A stretch of 64,000 nt of DNA from Fusicatenibacter saccharivorans (lineage in GTDB: Bacteria > Bacillota > Clostridia > Lachnospirales > Lachnospiraceae): NCBI RefSeq assembly GCF_015557635.1, contig NZ_JADNOP010000003.1, positions 62,001-126,000 of the forward strand, given 5' to 3'. The translations under genes and the position numbers were made by a program. The notes under the pieces are model-generated. The model saw nothing but the letters and a program-made list of their open reading frames with translations. It was not told the origin of the DNA and made no database searches. Positions within the stretch are counted from its first letter, which is position 1, and every line of letters starts with the position of its first letter. This document shows positions 12,468 to 18,074 of this stretch, in pieces.

Positions 12468-14596
12468 TTACGCAAGATGCTTCCGGAAGCGTTCTATGAC
12501 AGCAACGGATTCTGCACTGACAGGTTTCGGAACAGCGGACGGTTTTGCAAGAAAATAGCCCTGCAGGAGATCAACATCCAGTTCCAGTACCTTCAAAAGT
12601 TCAGCTGGAGTTTCCAGACCCTCGGCAATGATTTTCATGCCTCTTTGATGTGCATAGGAAACAATATTTTCTACGATCTGCTGCTTGTCCGGATCGGAGT
12701 CGATATCGCGGATGATGGAAAGATCTAGCTTGATATACGCCGGTGCAAGCTCCAGAAGCGTTTTTTCATTGCTGTAGCCGCTGCCGTAGTCATCCAGGGC
12801 AAATACACCGGAAAATCCCGGCATCTCACGTTTTTTCAGCAGAGCTGTAAGATCCGGTGAATCCTCCTCTGTGATCTCAATGACAATCCGATCCTGAAGA
12901 AAGCTGTATTGTTCGACGTAAGCCACTGCCTCGTCGTGATTCATGTATTGGCTTGCAATCGAATTGACAAAGAGAAGCTCATCACCGCGTATCTGATGGG
13001 TGGAGAGGAATGTGGCATAGGATTTTGCAGAGAGAAACATAGTCAGACGTTCTATTTCATGCAGGCACTCTTCCTCGTGAGCCAGCTGCAGGATCTGATC
13101 CGGACGAGTAAGTGCCGGGAGATTTCCGCGCATCAGCGCCTCGTAGGCGTAGATACTGCCGTCCGTGGCGGAAACAATTGGCTGGAAGTAATACGTAAAC
13201 AGCTCTTCATTCAACATTTTATGGAACAGGCGGCGCATCTCGGTTTCCTTTGCATTTTTTGTAAAAAGCTCCAGATCGAATTCGGTAATGTACCCTTTTT
13301 CTGCTTTCTTTACCTGGTACATTGCGAAATCCGCATATTTTTTCAGCGTAGACAGATCTGTACTGTTTTCCGGATACCAGGAAACTCCGCCGGAAAGGCG
13401 AAGGGGCAGTTTACGACCACTTGGCAGCTCCAGGGCTGTATTTGAAACCGCAAGGGAAAGATTCTGCAGAAGTGCTCGAATTTCTTCCTGCGATTGGTAG
13501 CCGTAGAACAGAAGATTAAATTCATCGCCGGAAATACGGGCACAGAGCGTTTTAGCCGGCACAGAGGAGATAAAACACTGTCCTGCCTGCCGGATATAGG
13601 CATCGCCCCAGTCGTGGCCGAAGGTGTCGTTGGTGCGTTTTAGATTGTCAAGGTCGATCATCAGAAGGGCAGCGTGACCGAGAACTTCCGAATGCTCAAA
13701 AAGAGCTTCACTTTCCCGCTGAAACGCGCGTCGATTGTAGAGACCGGTCAATGCATCGTAATCACGCTCGTGCTCCATGCGCTGCCGTTCCAGCATAACG
13801 GAGGTAAAATCTTCGACAAGTCCGATCTGCGCATAGCCCTCGCGGGAGGTCTCCATACGGATGTAGCGGATTGTTCCGTCAGAAAATGAAATTTCATACA
13901 CCTTAGAATGTCCGACCCATACGGTATGAGAATGTGTCTGGTCAAATTCACGCAGCATCTGCTGGAAATACCGGGTGGAAAGCCCGGAGACATCTTCAGA
14001 TGGAAGGTTGAGCATGGGAAAAAGTTCTTTGTGACATAGACCGTGTTGAGATCAAAACGCATCTCATAGCCACCCAGTTCAATACTTGCCATTTCCATGA
14101 TACGCAGGAATTTTGTGGAGGTTGTCAGAATAATATGGATACTGCCGTCATCGGAAAAGTCACCTTCTTCCAGGTAATTGGGAAGATAGGCAGCCTTTTC
14201 TTTCTCTGTAAGATAAGGGGAAAGATCAACGACCTGTCCCATCTGCTCAAGCGTATAGGCGGTATCGGCGTAGGCGGAAAAAATATTTGGCATGGCAAGG
14301 GCACCAACCCTTCCTTTGGCGGCATCGAGAACATTTTTTTCCAGGTCATTGATGCTGCCCTGACTGGAGGCTTCGACCGTAATATGCTCTTTTTTTCCGA
14401 TCGTTGTATTGAATTCCTCAACAAGACGTTCAAAGGAAGCTAACTGATCTCCGTTGTAATACGTCCATACGGTCAGCGTAACGGGTTTGTCGGAGGCGCG
14501 GCATCCGCCAAGAAGCGATACAGCGAGAACAGAACTCAAAAGAACGGTTGTGGCTTGATTTAAAAAAATTATAACATAAAGGAACAGGAGCCGCAA
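12468..14596 (-). pseudogene. Frameshifted solute-binding/PAS/GGDEF/EAL fusion protein
   Basis: The N-terminal part (from 14596) is a secreted or lipoprotein solute-binding module: hydrophobic leader, LLGGC lipobox, then VTLTVWTYYNGDQ typical of sugar-binding proteins. It runs only about 150 residues (a whole SBP needs 300 or more) before a PAS-like segment (LNTVYVTKNFFP), with no membrane helix visible at the join, so an internal deletion is likely. At about 14012 (TTTTTCCC) the frame shifts. The rest (12468-14015) encodes a PAS end, a GGDEF domain (SGDEF, with KRTNDTFGHDWGD) and a C-terminal EAL domain (YEALMRG, FALDDYGSG, KLDLSIIRDID). Whole relatives would link an extracellular ligand to c-di-GMP turnover. 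The cytoplasmic half could still be made from an internal start. Confidence 0.78.
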
Positions 14597-14625
14597 TCGA
14601 AATTAAGCCGTGGAACAGAAAAGTT

Positions 14626-14658
14626 GTTACAGTTCACTGGTTCCCAGCGAACTGTAAC
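14626..14658. repeat. 33-base palindrome related to the 58-bp dispersed repeat
   Basis: GTTACAGTTC and GAACTGTAAC form the ends of a near-perfect inverted repeat. The first 14 bases are the same as one end of the 58-bp element at 14712-14769. Between them, GCAGCCCTC (14663-14671) pairs with GAGGGCTGC (14696-14704). These repeats fill most of the 308-base gap between the two genes here. Confidence 0.7.
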
Positions 14659-14711
14659 ATTCGCAGCCCTCATTTAAAGTTTTGCTTCGCAAAAGGAGGG
14701 CTGCTCACGCC

Positions 14712-14904: not shown

Positions 14905-16440
14905 TTACTGATGATAATAAGAGAGGAAGTCGGTGAGCTTTCCAACCGCATCCTTTAAAACTTCAATTCGCGGCAGGTAAACAACGCGGAAGTGATCCGG
15001 CTGTCCCCAGTTGAAGCCGCCGCCGTGGACGATCAGAAGTTTTTTGTCGCGCAGCAGATCGAGAGCAAATTTTTCGTCGTTTGTGATATTGAACTTTTTC
15101 GTGTCAATTTTCGGGAACATGTAGAACGCAGCTTTTGGTTTGACTGCGGTGATACCCGGAATATCGCAGAATGCCTTGTAAACGTATTCGCGCTGCTCGT
15201 AAATCCGTCCGCCCGGAACGATGTAGTCGTTGACGCTCTGGTGGCCGCCAAGAGCGGTCTGGACAACGGACTGGGCCGGAACATTAGAGCAGAGACGCAT
15301 GTTAGAAAGCATTTTGAGTCCTTCAATATAGTCCTTTGCGATAGCTTTATTTCCGCTTAAGATCATCCAGCCGATACGGAAGCCTGCGATCATGTGCGAT
15401 TTGGAAAGACCACTGAAGGTGACACAGAACAGATCCGGTGCGAGGGATGCAATGGAAACATGCTCAAGACCGTCCATGACGAGCCGGTCATAAATTTCAT
15501 CGGAAAAGATGATCAGCTGATGCTCTCTGGCGAGATCGACAATCTGCTGCAGTACCTCTTTCGGATAGAGTGCACCGGTCGGGTTATTCGGATTGATGAT
15601 AACGATCGCTTTTGTGCGGTCGGTGATTTTTTTTCGCATATCATCGATGTCCGGATACCATTCGGACTGTTCATCGCAGATGTAGTGGACGGCTTTTCCA
15701 CCGGCCAGCGTTGCGCAGGCGGTCCAGAGCGGGTAATCCGGGGATGGGATGAGGATTTCATCACCGTCATCCAGAAGAGCGGACATGCAGAGGTTGATCA
15801 GCTCACTGACGCCGTTTCCGGTGTAGATATCATCGATAGAAACATTTGGCAGTTTCTTTAACTGCGCATACTGCATGATCGCTTTTCGTGCAGAGAAGAG
15901 ACCCTGGGAAGGAGAGTAACCCTCGCAGTCGGTAAGCTGATGGCTCATGTCGTAGATGACCTCATCAGGAGTACGGAAGCCAAATGGAGCCGGATTTCCA
16001 ATGTTCAGTTTCAGAACCTGTGTGCCGCACGCTTCCATACGGTTTGCTTCTTCTACGACAGGTCCGCGGACATCATATAAGACATTGTCGAGTTTCGATG
16101 ATTTTTTAAATTCTCGCATAGGGGAACCTCCTGTTTTTGTCTGGGAAAGGGAAGCGGCAGATGGATCAGAAAAGGATTCTGCCGGATCGGAAACCGTATC
16201 TGCCGTATAGTTTACTGTGGAATCTTTTGCAAGCAGCCAGTCGGGATCGACCTGGAGCACATCGGCCAGAAAGTGAAGAATGTCGGAGCGCGGAACCGTT
16301 TTTCCGCTGACATACTGGCTGACATGGCTTTTTCCAAGCTTCACACCGCGCCGCTGGGCCGCTCGGATCAAATCGACCTGCTTGAACTGTTTCGCCTGCA
16401 TGGCCAGTTTCAGACGGTCGGAAAAGGTTTCATTTGTCAT
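14905..16440 (-). CDS. alaT: Xre-type HTH domain fused to an AlaT-like aminotransferase
   Basis: 511 residues from ATG 16440 (AAGGAG upstream). Residues 1-75 form a Cro/CI-type helix-turn-helix (FSDRLKLAMQ...GKSHVSQYVSGKTVP). A low-complexity Ser/Thr/Asp linker follows (80-107). Residues 108-511 are a complete fold-type I PLP aminotransferase of the alanine/aspartate class: NPNNPTG, SDEIYDRL, the Schiff-base lysine in SGLSKSH, and FRVVYLP for the carboxylate Arg. The enzyme should interconvert alanine and pyruvate with glutamate. The fusion is unlike MocR regulators, which use a GntR domain. A second perfect ribosome site (AGGAGG, seven-base gap) precedes the ATG at 16119, residue 108, so a stand-alone enzyme is probably also made. 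Confidence 0.88.
   Translation of the reverse strand: MTNETFSDRLKLAMQAKQFKQVDLIRAAQRRGVKLGKSHVSQYVSGKTVPRSDILHFLADVLQVDPDWLLAKDSTVNYTADTVSDPAESFSDPSAASLSQTKTGGSPMREFKKSSKLDNVLYDVRGPVVEEANRMEACGTQVLKLNIGNPAPFGFRTPDEVIYDMSHQLTDCEGYSPSQGLFSARKAIMQYAQLKKLPNVSIDDIYTGNGVSELINLCMSALLDDGDEILIPSPDYPLWTACATLAGGKAVHYICDEQSEWYPDIDDMRKKITDRTKAIVIINPNNPTGALYPKEVLQQIVDLAREHQLIIFSDEIYDRLVMDGLEHVSIASLAPDLFCVTFSGLSKSHMIAGFRIGWMILSGNKAIAKDYIEGLKMLSNMRLCSNVPAQSVVQTALGGHQSVNDYIVPGGRIYEQREYVYKAFCDIPGITAVKPKAAFYMFPKIDTKKFNITNDEKFALDLLRDKKLLIVHGGGFNWGQPDHFRVVYLPRIEVLKDAVGKLTDFLSYYHQ
16117..16132 (-). promoter_or_regulatory. Strong internal ribosome site and start inside the HTH-aminotransferase gene
   Basis: AGGAGG (minus strand, 16132-16127) stands seven bases before an in-frame ATG (16119-16117). 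The protein from there begins MREFKKSSKLDNV, exactly where ordinary AlaT enzymes start. This points to two products from one gene or to a recent fusion of two once-separate genes. Confidence 0.75.
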
Positions 16441-16476
16441 AGAAAATCTCCTTAAAATAGAATGCAAAATAAAGAA

Positions 16477-16584
16477 AGTTCAAAACTGTGCTTATTGTAG
16501 CATGAGTGGGAAGAGAGTTCAATAGAAAAGCTGAAATTTGTAAAAAATATTGAAAAGTTCAAAATAGAAGAAAAATAAGTTCAA
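16477..16584. promoter_or_regulatory. Four AGTTCAA direct repeats in the divergent control region
   Basis: AGTTCAA occurs at 16477, 16516, 16556 and 16578, all in one orientation, with steps of 39, 40 and 22 bases (near multiples of the helical repeat). The copy at 16516 provides the TTGAAC -35 box of the HTH-aminotransferase promoter. They may be operators for the HTH domain of that protein; this is inference. The remaining bases of the 311-base gap hold the two promoters. Confidence 0.45.
16494..16522 (-). promoter_or_regulatory. Promoter of the HTH-aminotransferase gene
   Basis: On the minus strand TTGAAC (16522-16517), a 17-base spacer and TACAAT (16499-16494), 53 bases before the ATG. 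Confidence 0.65.
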
Positions 16585-16669: not shown

Positions 16670-16751
16670 AAAAAAATAGGATGTTATGCATTTCTGTTGG
16701 AATCCGCCAACAGAAACGAGAGTACATTGGGAGAAAAAGGGAGGAAAATGT

Positions 16752-18074
16752 ATGGGGGAAGGTCATAAAAAACTGAATTTTTCCGACTGTATGGGACTTG
16801 CGATCGGACAGATCATCGGTTCGGGCATCATGGTACTGACGGGAATCGTCATCGGTCTGACAGGACACGGCATTGCCGCAGCGTTTATTTTAGGCGCCGT
16901 GCTTGCCATTATCACCTGTGTACCGTTTATTATCCTGACGTCCGCAATCCCGTCATCAGGCGCCGGATTTACCTATATCCGACGTTTGCTGGGCGAAAAA
17001 GCCGGATTTATGTACATTGCGATGTTTGTCTTAAGCCAGGTTCTGATCGCAACGTACGCGAAAGGCTTTGCAAGCTATTTCTGCTCGATTTTTCCGCTGT
17101 TTGGCGAGTCGGCTGTCGCAATGGCAGCACTTGTTATCTGCACCGCCATCAATCTTGTCGGACTGAAATCGAGCGCACTGGTGCAAAAGGGCATGGTTGT
17201 GCTGCTGCTTTTGAGCCTGTTCTTATTTATTGTATTCGGTCTGCCCAAGGTGAGCTGGGATGCCCTGACACCGACGGTATCCAACCTGATGCCGAACGGT
17301 CCGAAGAACTTTTTCACAGGCGTAGCGCTTTTAAGCTTTGCGTGCGGAGGCGCAAAATTCGTTGCGGAGAACGGTGATGATATCGTGGAGCCGTCCCGCA
17401 CGATTCCAAAGGTTATCGTACTTTCCACGAGTATCGTTGCTGTATTCTACGTGCTGATCGGTATCGTGGCAGGCGGCGTGCTTCCGGTCGAAACGGTCGC
17501 ATTTCAGAACCTGACGCTTGTCGCGCAGGAGATTTTTCCAACCTGGCTGTACCTGTTCTTCGTGTTCGGCGGTGCCGTATTTGCACTGCTCACCACCCTG
17601 AATGGAACCTTGAGCTGGGTGACGCGAGGACTGCAGGCGGCCGCAAAACAGGGCTGGCTGCCGGAAAAAACTGCGGAGGAGAATAAAAATGGTGTTCCGG
17701 TGATCCTTCTGATGGTCTTTTTCCTGATGGGCGCTATTCCGATCCTTACGGGAATGGATCTGACATTGATTTCAAACATGGGTGTCGGAACCGATATGGT
17801 GACGGAGTTTATGGTACTCCTGGCCTGCTGGCGTCTGCCTGATATCTTCCCGGAAGAGTATCAGAAATCTGCGTTTTGTATGAAAAAGCGGACACTTCAC
17901 ATTCTGCTGTTTTTTATCGGCATTCTGATGATCGGAACCTCGTATGTCAATCTGTCGGATCTTACTGTTCCAGCGGCGATTGCATGCGGCATCTATATTC
18001 TGGTGATGTTTGTTTACACGCAGGTCCGATATCCGTATGTGAAGGCAAAACAGGAAAAGAAAGAAAACAAATAA
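16752..18074 (+). CDS. APC-superfamily amino acid permease
   Basis: A 440-residue inner-membrane transporter with about twelve helices and the APC hallmark in helix 1: LAIGQIIGSGIMVLTG, where the unwound GSG segment binds the substrate's amino and carboxyl groups. 'FACGGAKFVAENGDDI' matches the helix 6 gate of the family. The start at 16752 follows GGGAGG by seven bases; upstream in-frame ATGs lack a site. It is divergent from the HTH-aminotransferase gene and shares its control region, so a link to amino-acid (perhaps alanine) supply is suggested by context only. A MATE transporter follows 22 bases later on the same strand, possibly co-transcribed. Substrate unknown. Confidence 0.88.
   Translation: MGEGHKKLNFSDCMGLAIGQIIGSGIMVLTGIVIGLTGHGIAAAFILGAVLAIITCVPFIILTSAIPSSGAGFTYIRRLLGEKAGFMYIAMFVLSQVLIATYAKGFASYFCSIFPLFGESAVAMAALVICTAINLVGLKSSALVQKGMVVLLLLSLFLFIVFGLPKVSWDALTPTVSNLMPNGPKNFFTGVALLSFACGGAKFVAENGDDIVEPSRTIPKVIVLSTSIVAVFYVLIGIVAGGVLPVETVAFQNLTLVAQEIFPTWLYLFFVFGGAVFALLTTLNGTLSWVTRGLQAAAKQGWLPEKTAEENKNGVPVILLMVFFLMGAIPILTGMDLTLISNMGVGTDMVTEFMVLLACWRLPDIFPEEYQKSAFCMKKRTLHILLFFIGILMIGTSYVNLSDLTVPAAIACGIYILVMFVYTQVRYPYVKAKQEKKENK

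Follow-up and report, generated by a model that had tools for sequence, protein, structure and literature searches.

A phage CI-type DNA-binding domain joined to the aminotransferase AlaA: a predicted self-repressing gene with a conserved second start

Could one bacterial gene supply both a DNA-binding enzyme and the same enzyme free of its DNA-binding part, and what would the DNA-binding form then act upon? The question is raised by a locus in a 64,000-nt stretch of the Fusicatenibacter saccharivorans genome (contig NZ_JADNOP010000003.1, positions 62,001 to 126,000; herein the window). A preliminary description had proposed that a phage-type helix-turn-helix (HTH) domain is fused there to a full AlaT-like enzyme, that an internal start may release the enzyme, and that the arrangement is a MocR-like idea built from different parts. 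From comparisons across relatives we consider it probable that the gene is autorepressed and yields two products, a judgment that covers both properties together. The fusion gene lies on the minus strand, which the preliminary description did not specify, with its ATG at 16438-16440 and the end of its stop codon at 14905. Its parts, in window coordinates, are as follows.

14905..16440, minus strand: HTH-AlaA fusion gene, long product of 511 aa (open reading frame, Pfam and sequence search)
16222..16440, minus strand: Cro/C1 (phage CI-type) HTH domain, residues 1-73 (Pfam, PHROGs, AlphaFold, Foldseek)
16120..16221, minus strand: linker, residues 74-107
16127..16132, minus strand: internal Shine-Dalgarno sequence AGGAGG, 7 nt before the internal ATG (sequence; conserved)
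16117..16119, minus strand: internal start codon ATG, Met108, equivalent to Met1 of E. coli AlaA (alignment)
14905..16119, minus strand: AlaA aminotransferase, 404 aa, PLP lysine K347; the predicted short product is this C-terminal part of the long one
16448..16453, minus strand: Shine-Dalgarno sequence AAGGAG of the long product
16478..16483, minus strand: candidate operator box TTGAAC(TT), between the -10 hexamer and the ribosome site
16494..16499, minus strand: -10 hexamer TACAAT, preceded by TG
16517..16522, minus strand: candidate operator box TTGAAC, doubling as the -35 hexamer (17-nt spacer)
16557..16562, minus strand: candidate operator box TTGAAC(TT)
16579..16584, minus strand: candidate operator box TTGAAC(TT), 22 bp from the box at 16557..16562

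The N-terminal domain (residues 1-73) scores 22.4 bits against Pfam HTH_3 within the whole protein, just below the cut-off of 23, and 27.0 bits on its own. Its AlphaFold model is compact (mean pLDDT 93.7), 12 columns are invariant among 40 sequences, and helix 37-45 is the presumed recognition helix. A profile of the domain run against PDB sequences (E ≤ 0.001) gave only four distinct matches, all named CI (E 1e-18 to 2e-17); TP901-1 CI is the closest solved HTH by sequence (hmmsearch, E 1e-18) and takes ranks 1-4 by fold (Foldseek), including a complex with an operator half-site. Phage repressors are also matched in PHROGs. Membership of the GntR/MocR family was rejected, as Pfam gives HTH_3 and HTH_31 with no GntR, and the closest structures are phage CI. 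Like the fusion, the TP901-1 CI N-terminal domain (PDB 3zhm, 5a7l) has a homologous HTH, a flexible linker to a dimerizing part and, in an excerpt of the published account, a TGAACT half-site (PMC4941734); TP901-1 CI, however, carries a C-terminal oligomerization domain where the fusion has AlaA.

Pfam Aminotran_1_2 marks the C-terminal half as a fold-type I aminotransferase domain, and the closest solved match of residues 108-511 is E. coli AlaA (4cvq; 57% identity, phmmer E 1.6e-172). An in-frame union of a phage-type HTH with a full aminotransferase is thus borne out, as are the predicted sizes of 511 and 404 residues, which follow from the reading frame; the enzyme is a full relative as first described, but “AlaA-like” suits it better than “AlaT-like”. 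The AGGAGG noted before the normal enzyme start is indeed well spaced. In E. coli AlaA the active-site plug contains Y15 and R18, and R378 is the substrate arginine, as given in an excerpt of the structural study (PMC4094517). Of 17 positions in the active site and plug, 16 do not vary among 108 fusions and the remaining one is conserved in 107; K347, Y122 and R125 (plug), and R485 (substrate arginine) are present in 108/108, and the plug position Ile17 of E. coli AlaA is Val in the fusions. Because the catalytic residues are conserved, the enzyme half should be catalytically working, and a degenerate sensor domain is disfavored. The full-length AlphaFold model renders the enzyme half poorly (mean pLDDT 55). 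E. coli AlaA and the free AlaA of Lachnospiraceae share with the fusion the enzyme family, the start place and the active-site residues; unlike it, they have no HTH.

The preliminary description had suggested a survey of relatives, and this gave 110 distinct fusions, mostly from Lachnospiraceae and eight of them from Bifidobacterium. An AlaA orthologue is found in 107 of 397 genomes of the family (E ≤ 1e-100), and 40 of these 107 carry the phage CI-type HTH fusion; the DNA was inspected for 97 of 109 matches, the remaining twelve being judged by open-frame length only. In a sample of the class, 37 of 391 genomes match at E ≤ 1e-130, and four of these, in other families (G507, G620, G722, G642), hold likely fusions, assigned by match range or open-frame length alone. 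A scan of genome contigs with the HTH profile contributed the best 80 of 387 loci, of which 78 are in-frame fusions; these best 80 include Blautia, Mediterraneibacter, Coprococcus comes, Eisenbergiella and Anaerostipes, together with eight Bifidobacterium species. The 42 loci from the genome search and these 80 make 122, from which L120 (HTH and enzyme out of frame) and L169 (contig ends) were dropped and ten copies with identical first 150 nt merged, leaving 110 (42 + 68). The L120 draft (Ruminococcus faecis JCM 15917) may reflect a disrupted gene or an error in sequencing. Also outside the 110 are a fusion cut by a contig end and containing a stop codon (G005) and an independent fusion (L105). 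Upstream counts use 108 fusions (L166 and L171 have too little upstream sequence), and the tree uses 108 (the enzyme is cut by a contig end in L127 and L159). The 62 listed genes without the phage CI-type HTH are 60 true free genes together with L010 and L105. Since no upstream sequence is available for L010 and L078, the upstream control has 60 members, 59 free genes plus L105; the start-site control of 58 consists of free alaA genes with ATG. Counts of related sequences overstate independence, and many of the genomes are metagenome assemblies.

A FastTree phylogeny of the enzyme part (168 rows) places all 108 fusions on one branch with just four free genes (support 97, starred), nested among free alaA genes. 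The best tree has five changes of state, at least three of them forced by starred branches; they are most simply explained by a single fusion and four subsequent losses of the HTH (L008, L009, L068 and L070). The Bifidobacterium fusions (L156, L170, L174, L184, L185, L188, L193 and L195) form a group within the Lachnospiraceae clade and have both the boxes and the internal start; the fusion has likely moved between phyla, since these genes are nested in that clade. L105 (G276:C6) carries a different Cro/C1-type HTH on AlaA, with an in-frame TTG and an upstream AAGGA at the AlaA start; the HTH-AlaA fusion thus seems to have arisen twice. Two Eisenbergiella genomes, G465 (loci L178/L189) and G469 (L191), each hold two fusion-length AlaA copies.

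The promoters of the fusions share a hexamer, TTGAAC/GTTCAA, with 406 copies within 200 nt upstream in 104 of 108 fusions; shuffled upstreams average 13 copies and never exceed 21, and the 60 upstreams of alaA genes without the phage CI-type HTH contain 3. Four or five boxes are present in 82 of the 110 promoters. They are mostly in the sense orientation (364, against 45 antisense, in 110 promoters): 252 of 303 neighboring pairs are sense direct repeats and 11 pairs in the 110 promoters are inverted. TT is favored after the box and A/T before it; T follows TTGAAC in 358 of 408 boxes, giving TGAACT. In 90 of 110 promoters a box can serve as a -35 hexamer with a -10-like hexamer 16-18 nt away (75 at 17), compared with a mean of 35.6 and a maximum of 49 for boxes at random positions. 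Spacings between direct boxes peak near 11, 20, 30-31 and 41-43 bp, with a period of 10.5-10.75 bp (R 0.47 vs 0.10 when jittered; 214 spacings from 97 nonredundant promoters). Since this phasing is close to 10.5 bp, the boxes tend toward one face of the DNA.

This layout bears on the MocR-like idea, in which substrate or PLP at the AlaA active site would alter DNA binding, so that the protein would sense alanine or pyruvate and not the amount of enzyme. MocR, GabR and PdxR (GntR subfamily) resemble the fusion in having an N-terminal DNA-binding domain, a linker and a fold-type I aminotransferase-type domain. Many MocR operators, in the portion of the review available (PMC5320631), consist of direct repeats facing the same side of the DNA, like the fusion boxes, a likeness that is not proof of membership. 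The point of attachment is also suggestive: excerpts of the E. coli AlaA study (PMC4094517) place the first ten residues in the dimer interface and describe an arm, up to Pro20, that is ordered with a substrate mimic bound, and the HTH is joined directly before this arm. Against such sensing, the linker, counted from a conserved WL to the place of the internal Met, varies from 11 to 85 residues among the 110 fusions, and rigid coupling of HTH and enzyme is therefore disfavored; with the active-site residues conserved, ligands would moreover be turned over. MocR regulators also have a GntR-type winged HTH, in contrast to the Cro/C1, phage CI type of the fusion, and the fusion differs from them in two further ways: its enzyme half stands close to AlaA and keeps the active-site residues, and its internal start should release the enzyme. 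The MocR comparison of the preliminary description accordingly holds for anatomy and operator layout and fails for the enzyme half. We regard ligand sensing of this kind as rather unlikely; it can coexist with autorepression and two products, and both could hold.

Evidence for two products comes from the second start. An in-frame ATG with a Shine-Dalgarno sequence is present in 106 of 110 fusions, at the place of AlaA Met1 in 101 and three codons upstream in 5. Its mean duplex energy (-9.3 kcal/mol; 106 fusions) compares with -8.9 kcal/mol at the first start of the fusions (n = 110), -8.5 kcal/mol at the ATG starts of free alaA genes (n = 58) and -2.45 kcal/mol at other in-frame ATGs of the same genes (n = 1283). 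At least five of the six AGGAGG positions are matched at 81% of the 106 internal starts, vs 12% of 1281 other in-frame ATGs and 9% of 2447 linker pseudo-starts; a chance origin was rejected, the Shine-Dalgarno sequence being far above both backgrounds. A preference for glycine residues in the linker could in principle create such a sequence, but synonymous recoding weakens the mean energy to -7.1 kcal/mol, and the native sequence is stronger than the mean of its recodings in 97 of 106 (Wilcoxon 3e-15, with rows that are not independent); taken singly, the genes give only a weak result, 14 of 106 reaching p ≤ 0.05. A candidate hairpin spanning the internal Shine-Dalgarno sequence, found on the other strand, was set aside, as the bases after this sequence vary among fusions.

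These data can be set against an account with one main product, in which the fusion is an autorepressor and the internal start a little-used leftover of the ancestral free alaA. Free homologues do start at the same place with a similar Shine-Dalgarno sequence, and the internal start has been lost at least twice with the fusion kept. Yet the Shine-Dalgarno sequence and ATG have been retained in 106/110 while the seven residues before the Met have diversified into 89 different heptapeptides among the 106, and the site is as strong as real start sites. The five fusions with the pair three codons upstream argue in the same direction; four of them, all Eisenbergiella (L159, L176, L178 and L191), have it intact at about -10.2 kcal/mol, and the fifth (L056) reaches only -5.6. 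The eight Bifidobacterium fusions likewise retain the internal start. We judge the one-product account improbable, and the two products first proposed are, at the level of sequence conservation, strongly supported.

Some exceptions count against the two-product reading. The internal ATG is lost in 4 of 110 fusions, three of one clade in the genus of the window (L003, L004 and L006) and L198 (Blautia sp. MSJ-9), and the tree requires two losses. As L198 has no internal ATG and a single, distant box, the second product is not indispensable. Searches for second copies, one of them covering 50 of 70 loci, found a separate free alaA in two genomes with start loss (G002 and G003) and in G005, whose fusion is broken, and none in G001 (only 75% complete) or in the L198 genome (G426). 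Genomes with the start kept also have a separate copy in four cases (G034, G450, G461 and G472) and a partial one in G455, and a tie between loss of the start and a free copy is only suggestive.

Which protein would read the boxes? Residues and sites vary together to some extent. Sites of the form ATGAACTT/ATAAACTT number 22 in 18 genes of the GKSQ type, in which glutamine takes the place of the histidine of the GKSH motif, vs 4 in 92 genes of the GKSH type. Four promoters, all of the GKSQ type (L040, L043, L053 and L054), are without a TTGAAC box, and two of them (L053 and L054) have ATAAACTT in its place. The start of the box co-varies with residue 39 of the recognition helix, with 3-5 independent pairs only and without significance. 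No TTGAAC box lies within 200 nt of any of the four genes that have lost the HTH (L008 has a single variant box, ATAAACTT), and the Bifidobacterium fusions carry boxes upstream. The published TP901-1 OL oligonucleotide, as given in an excerpt (PMC4941734), is AGTTCATGAAACGTGAACT, with AGTTCA/TGAACT half-sites. The box was defined independently of the TP901-1 operator, and TGAACT forms its core; the CI sites are inverted pairs, whereas the fusion boxes are mostly direct repeats. The phage CI-type HTH is the likely reader of the boxes, because genes that have lost it are without TTGAAC boxes, the Bifidobacterium fusions have them and the half-site of TP901-1 is shared, and also because the GKSQ variants show the variant boxes, albeit through few independent events. 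The DNA binding predicted in the preliminary description thereby gains strong support at the level of sequence.

That the boxes belong to another regulator, with the HTH a bystander, is very improbable. Boxes do persist, fewer or inverted, in three relatives without the internal start, but the near absence of boxes from alaA genes without the HTH (3 in 60), their absence within 200 nt in the four HTH-loss genes, their presence in Bifidobacterium and the half-site of the closest solved HTH within the box all count against a third party. Still less credible is an untranslated HTH frame with the gene beginning at the internal ATG, for which the good internal start is the one point in favor, against 110 distinct genes with an open linker of variable length, a strong Shine-Dalgarno sequence at the first start and a conserved HTH with its invariant columns.

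If the HTH of the fusion reads the boxes, its targets appear to be few. A three-box match (strict pattern) lies at the fusion promoter in 28 of 40 genomes; in these 40 genomes, 44 of 51 three-box matches are just upstream of the fusion gene and 7 elsewhere, against 10 control matches. Box pairs outside the alaA promoter number 3 of 34 in 29 genomes, with 3 control matches, and the genome of the window has 1 box pair in all. A wider regulon of box clusters was rejected, as pairs and triples beyond the alaA promoter are few and at control level; the search covered pairs and triples in 29 and 40 chosen fusion-bearing genomes. Box clusters are thus largely confined to the alaA promoter, which gives the protein the look of a dedicated autoregulator, clusters and not single boxes having been searched.

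We propose that a TP901-1 CI-like DNA-binding domain has been joined by a flexible linker to the AlaA homodimer, which would replace the oligomerization part of CI. The AlaA dimer would bring two CI-type headpieces together, and flexible tethers (11-85 residues) would allow them to hold a pair of direct boxes on the same side of the DNA. Judged from its footprint in the promoters, the long product would bind direct TTGAACTT boxes upstream of its own gene, cover the -35 box and repress transcription; since one box is the -35 hexamer, binding should block RNA polymerase. The internal ATG on the same mRNA, given its conservation, would also initiate and produce ordinary AlaA, and this HTH-free AlaA would supply enzyme. 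AlaA being dimeric, mixing of long and short chains is expected, so that only part of the enzyme pool would carry two HTHs; mixed dimers should soften repression. That the ratio of long to short chains sets the strength of feedback through mixed dimers, while enzyme supply is kept, seems to us an evenly balanced proposition. Since the HTH hangs on an arm ordered by substrate, substrate could modulate DNA binding; such tuning by substrate or PLP through the N-terminal arm is speculative, and we hold it possible rather than probable. Similarly tentative is a convergent counterpart of MocR, in which the substrate state of an active AlaA positions two tethered CI headpieces and HTH-free subunits weaken repression, so that one gene would be sensor, enzyme, repressor and dominant-negative.

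Internal in-frame starts that remove an N-terminal part are known from Tn5 transposase and its inhibitor and from the long and short forms of CheA and ClpB, with the shorter Tn5 protein weakening the longer. These proteins are unrelated to the fusion, and none is an autorepressed metabolic enzyme. PutA, group II BirA and NadR are trigger enzymes that repress transcription, each a metabolic enzyme with its own DNA-binding domain, and none of them is known to have an enzyme-releasing second start. Although it would work much as a MocR regulator does, the fusion is not one, and is better placed among the trigger enzymes, alongside PutA and group II BirA. Groups I and II of BirA are distinguished in an excerpt of PMC4016012. 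We found no account of the HTH-AlaA fusion or its second start in the open-licence literature.

If true, the fusion offers a testable case of a metabolic enzyme turning into its own repressor: a phage-type headpiece has been added to an unchanged enzyme, with the old start retained so that free enzyme is still possible. Among relatives, both the HTH and the internal start have been lost naturally in some genes, and a predicted phased operator is at hand; the roles of the two products should therefore be separable. The arrangement is common in gut Lachnospiraceae, to judge from the 40 of 107 AlaA-bearing genomes, and extends to Bifidobacterium; annotation with one protein per gene would overlook the second product.

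Some features of the surrounding DNA are worth recording. No Rfam RNA element reaches the gathering score in the window. An amino-acid-permease-like gene, recognized by eye, runs divergently at 16686-18074 (plus strand), and the intergenic region that holds the boxes is common to both genes. A tblastn search (1e-8) of the flanking sequence, up to 3 kb, at 80 other HTH loci did not find it, and the permease was rejected as a conserved partner. On the 3′ side of the fusion gene a 16-pair hairpin followed by a T-rich run (14625-14659, minus strand) is a candidate terminator. Beyond it, at 12468-14596 on the minus strand, an open reading frame with the look of an extracellular solute-binding domain (13748-14596) overlaps a GGDEF-EAL-like one (12468-14015) in a different frame, the domains being assigned by eye; they may be one frameshift-broken sensor gene or two genes.
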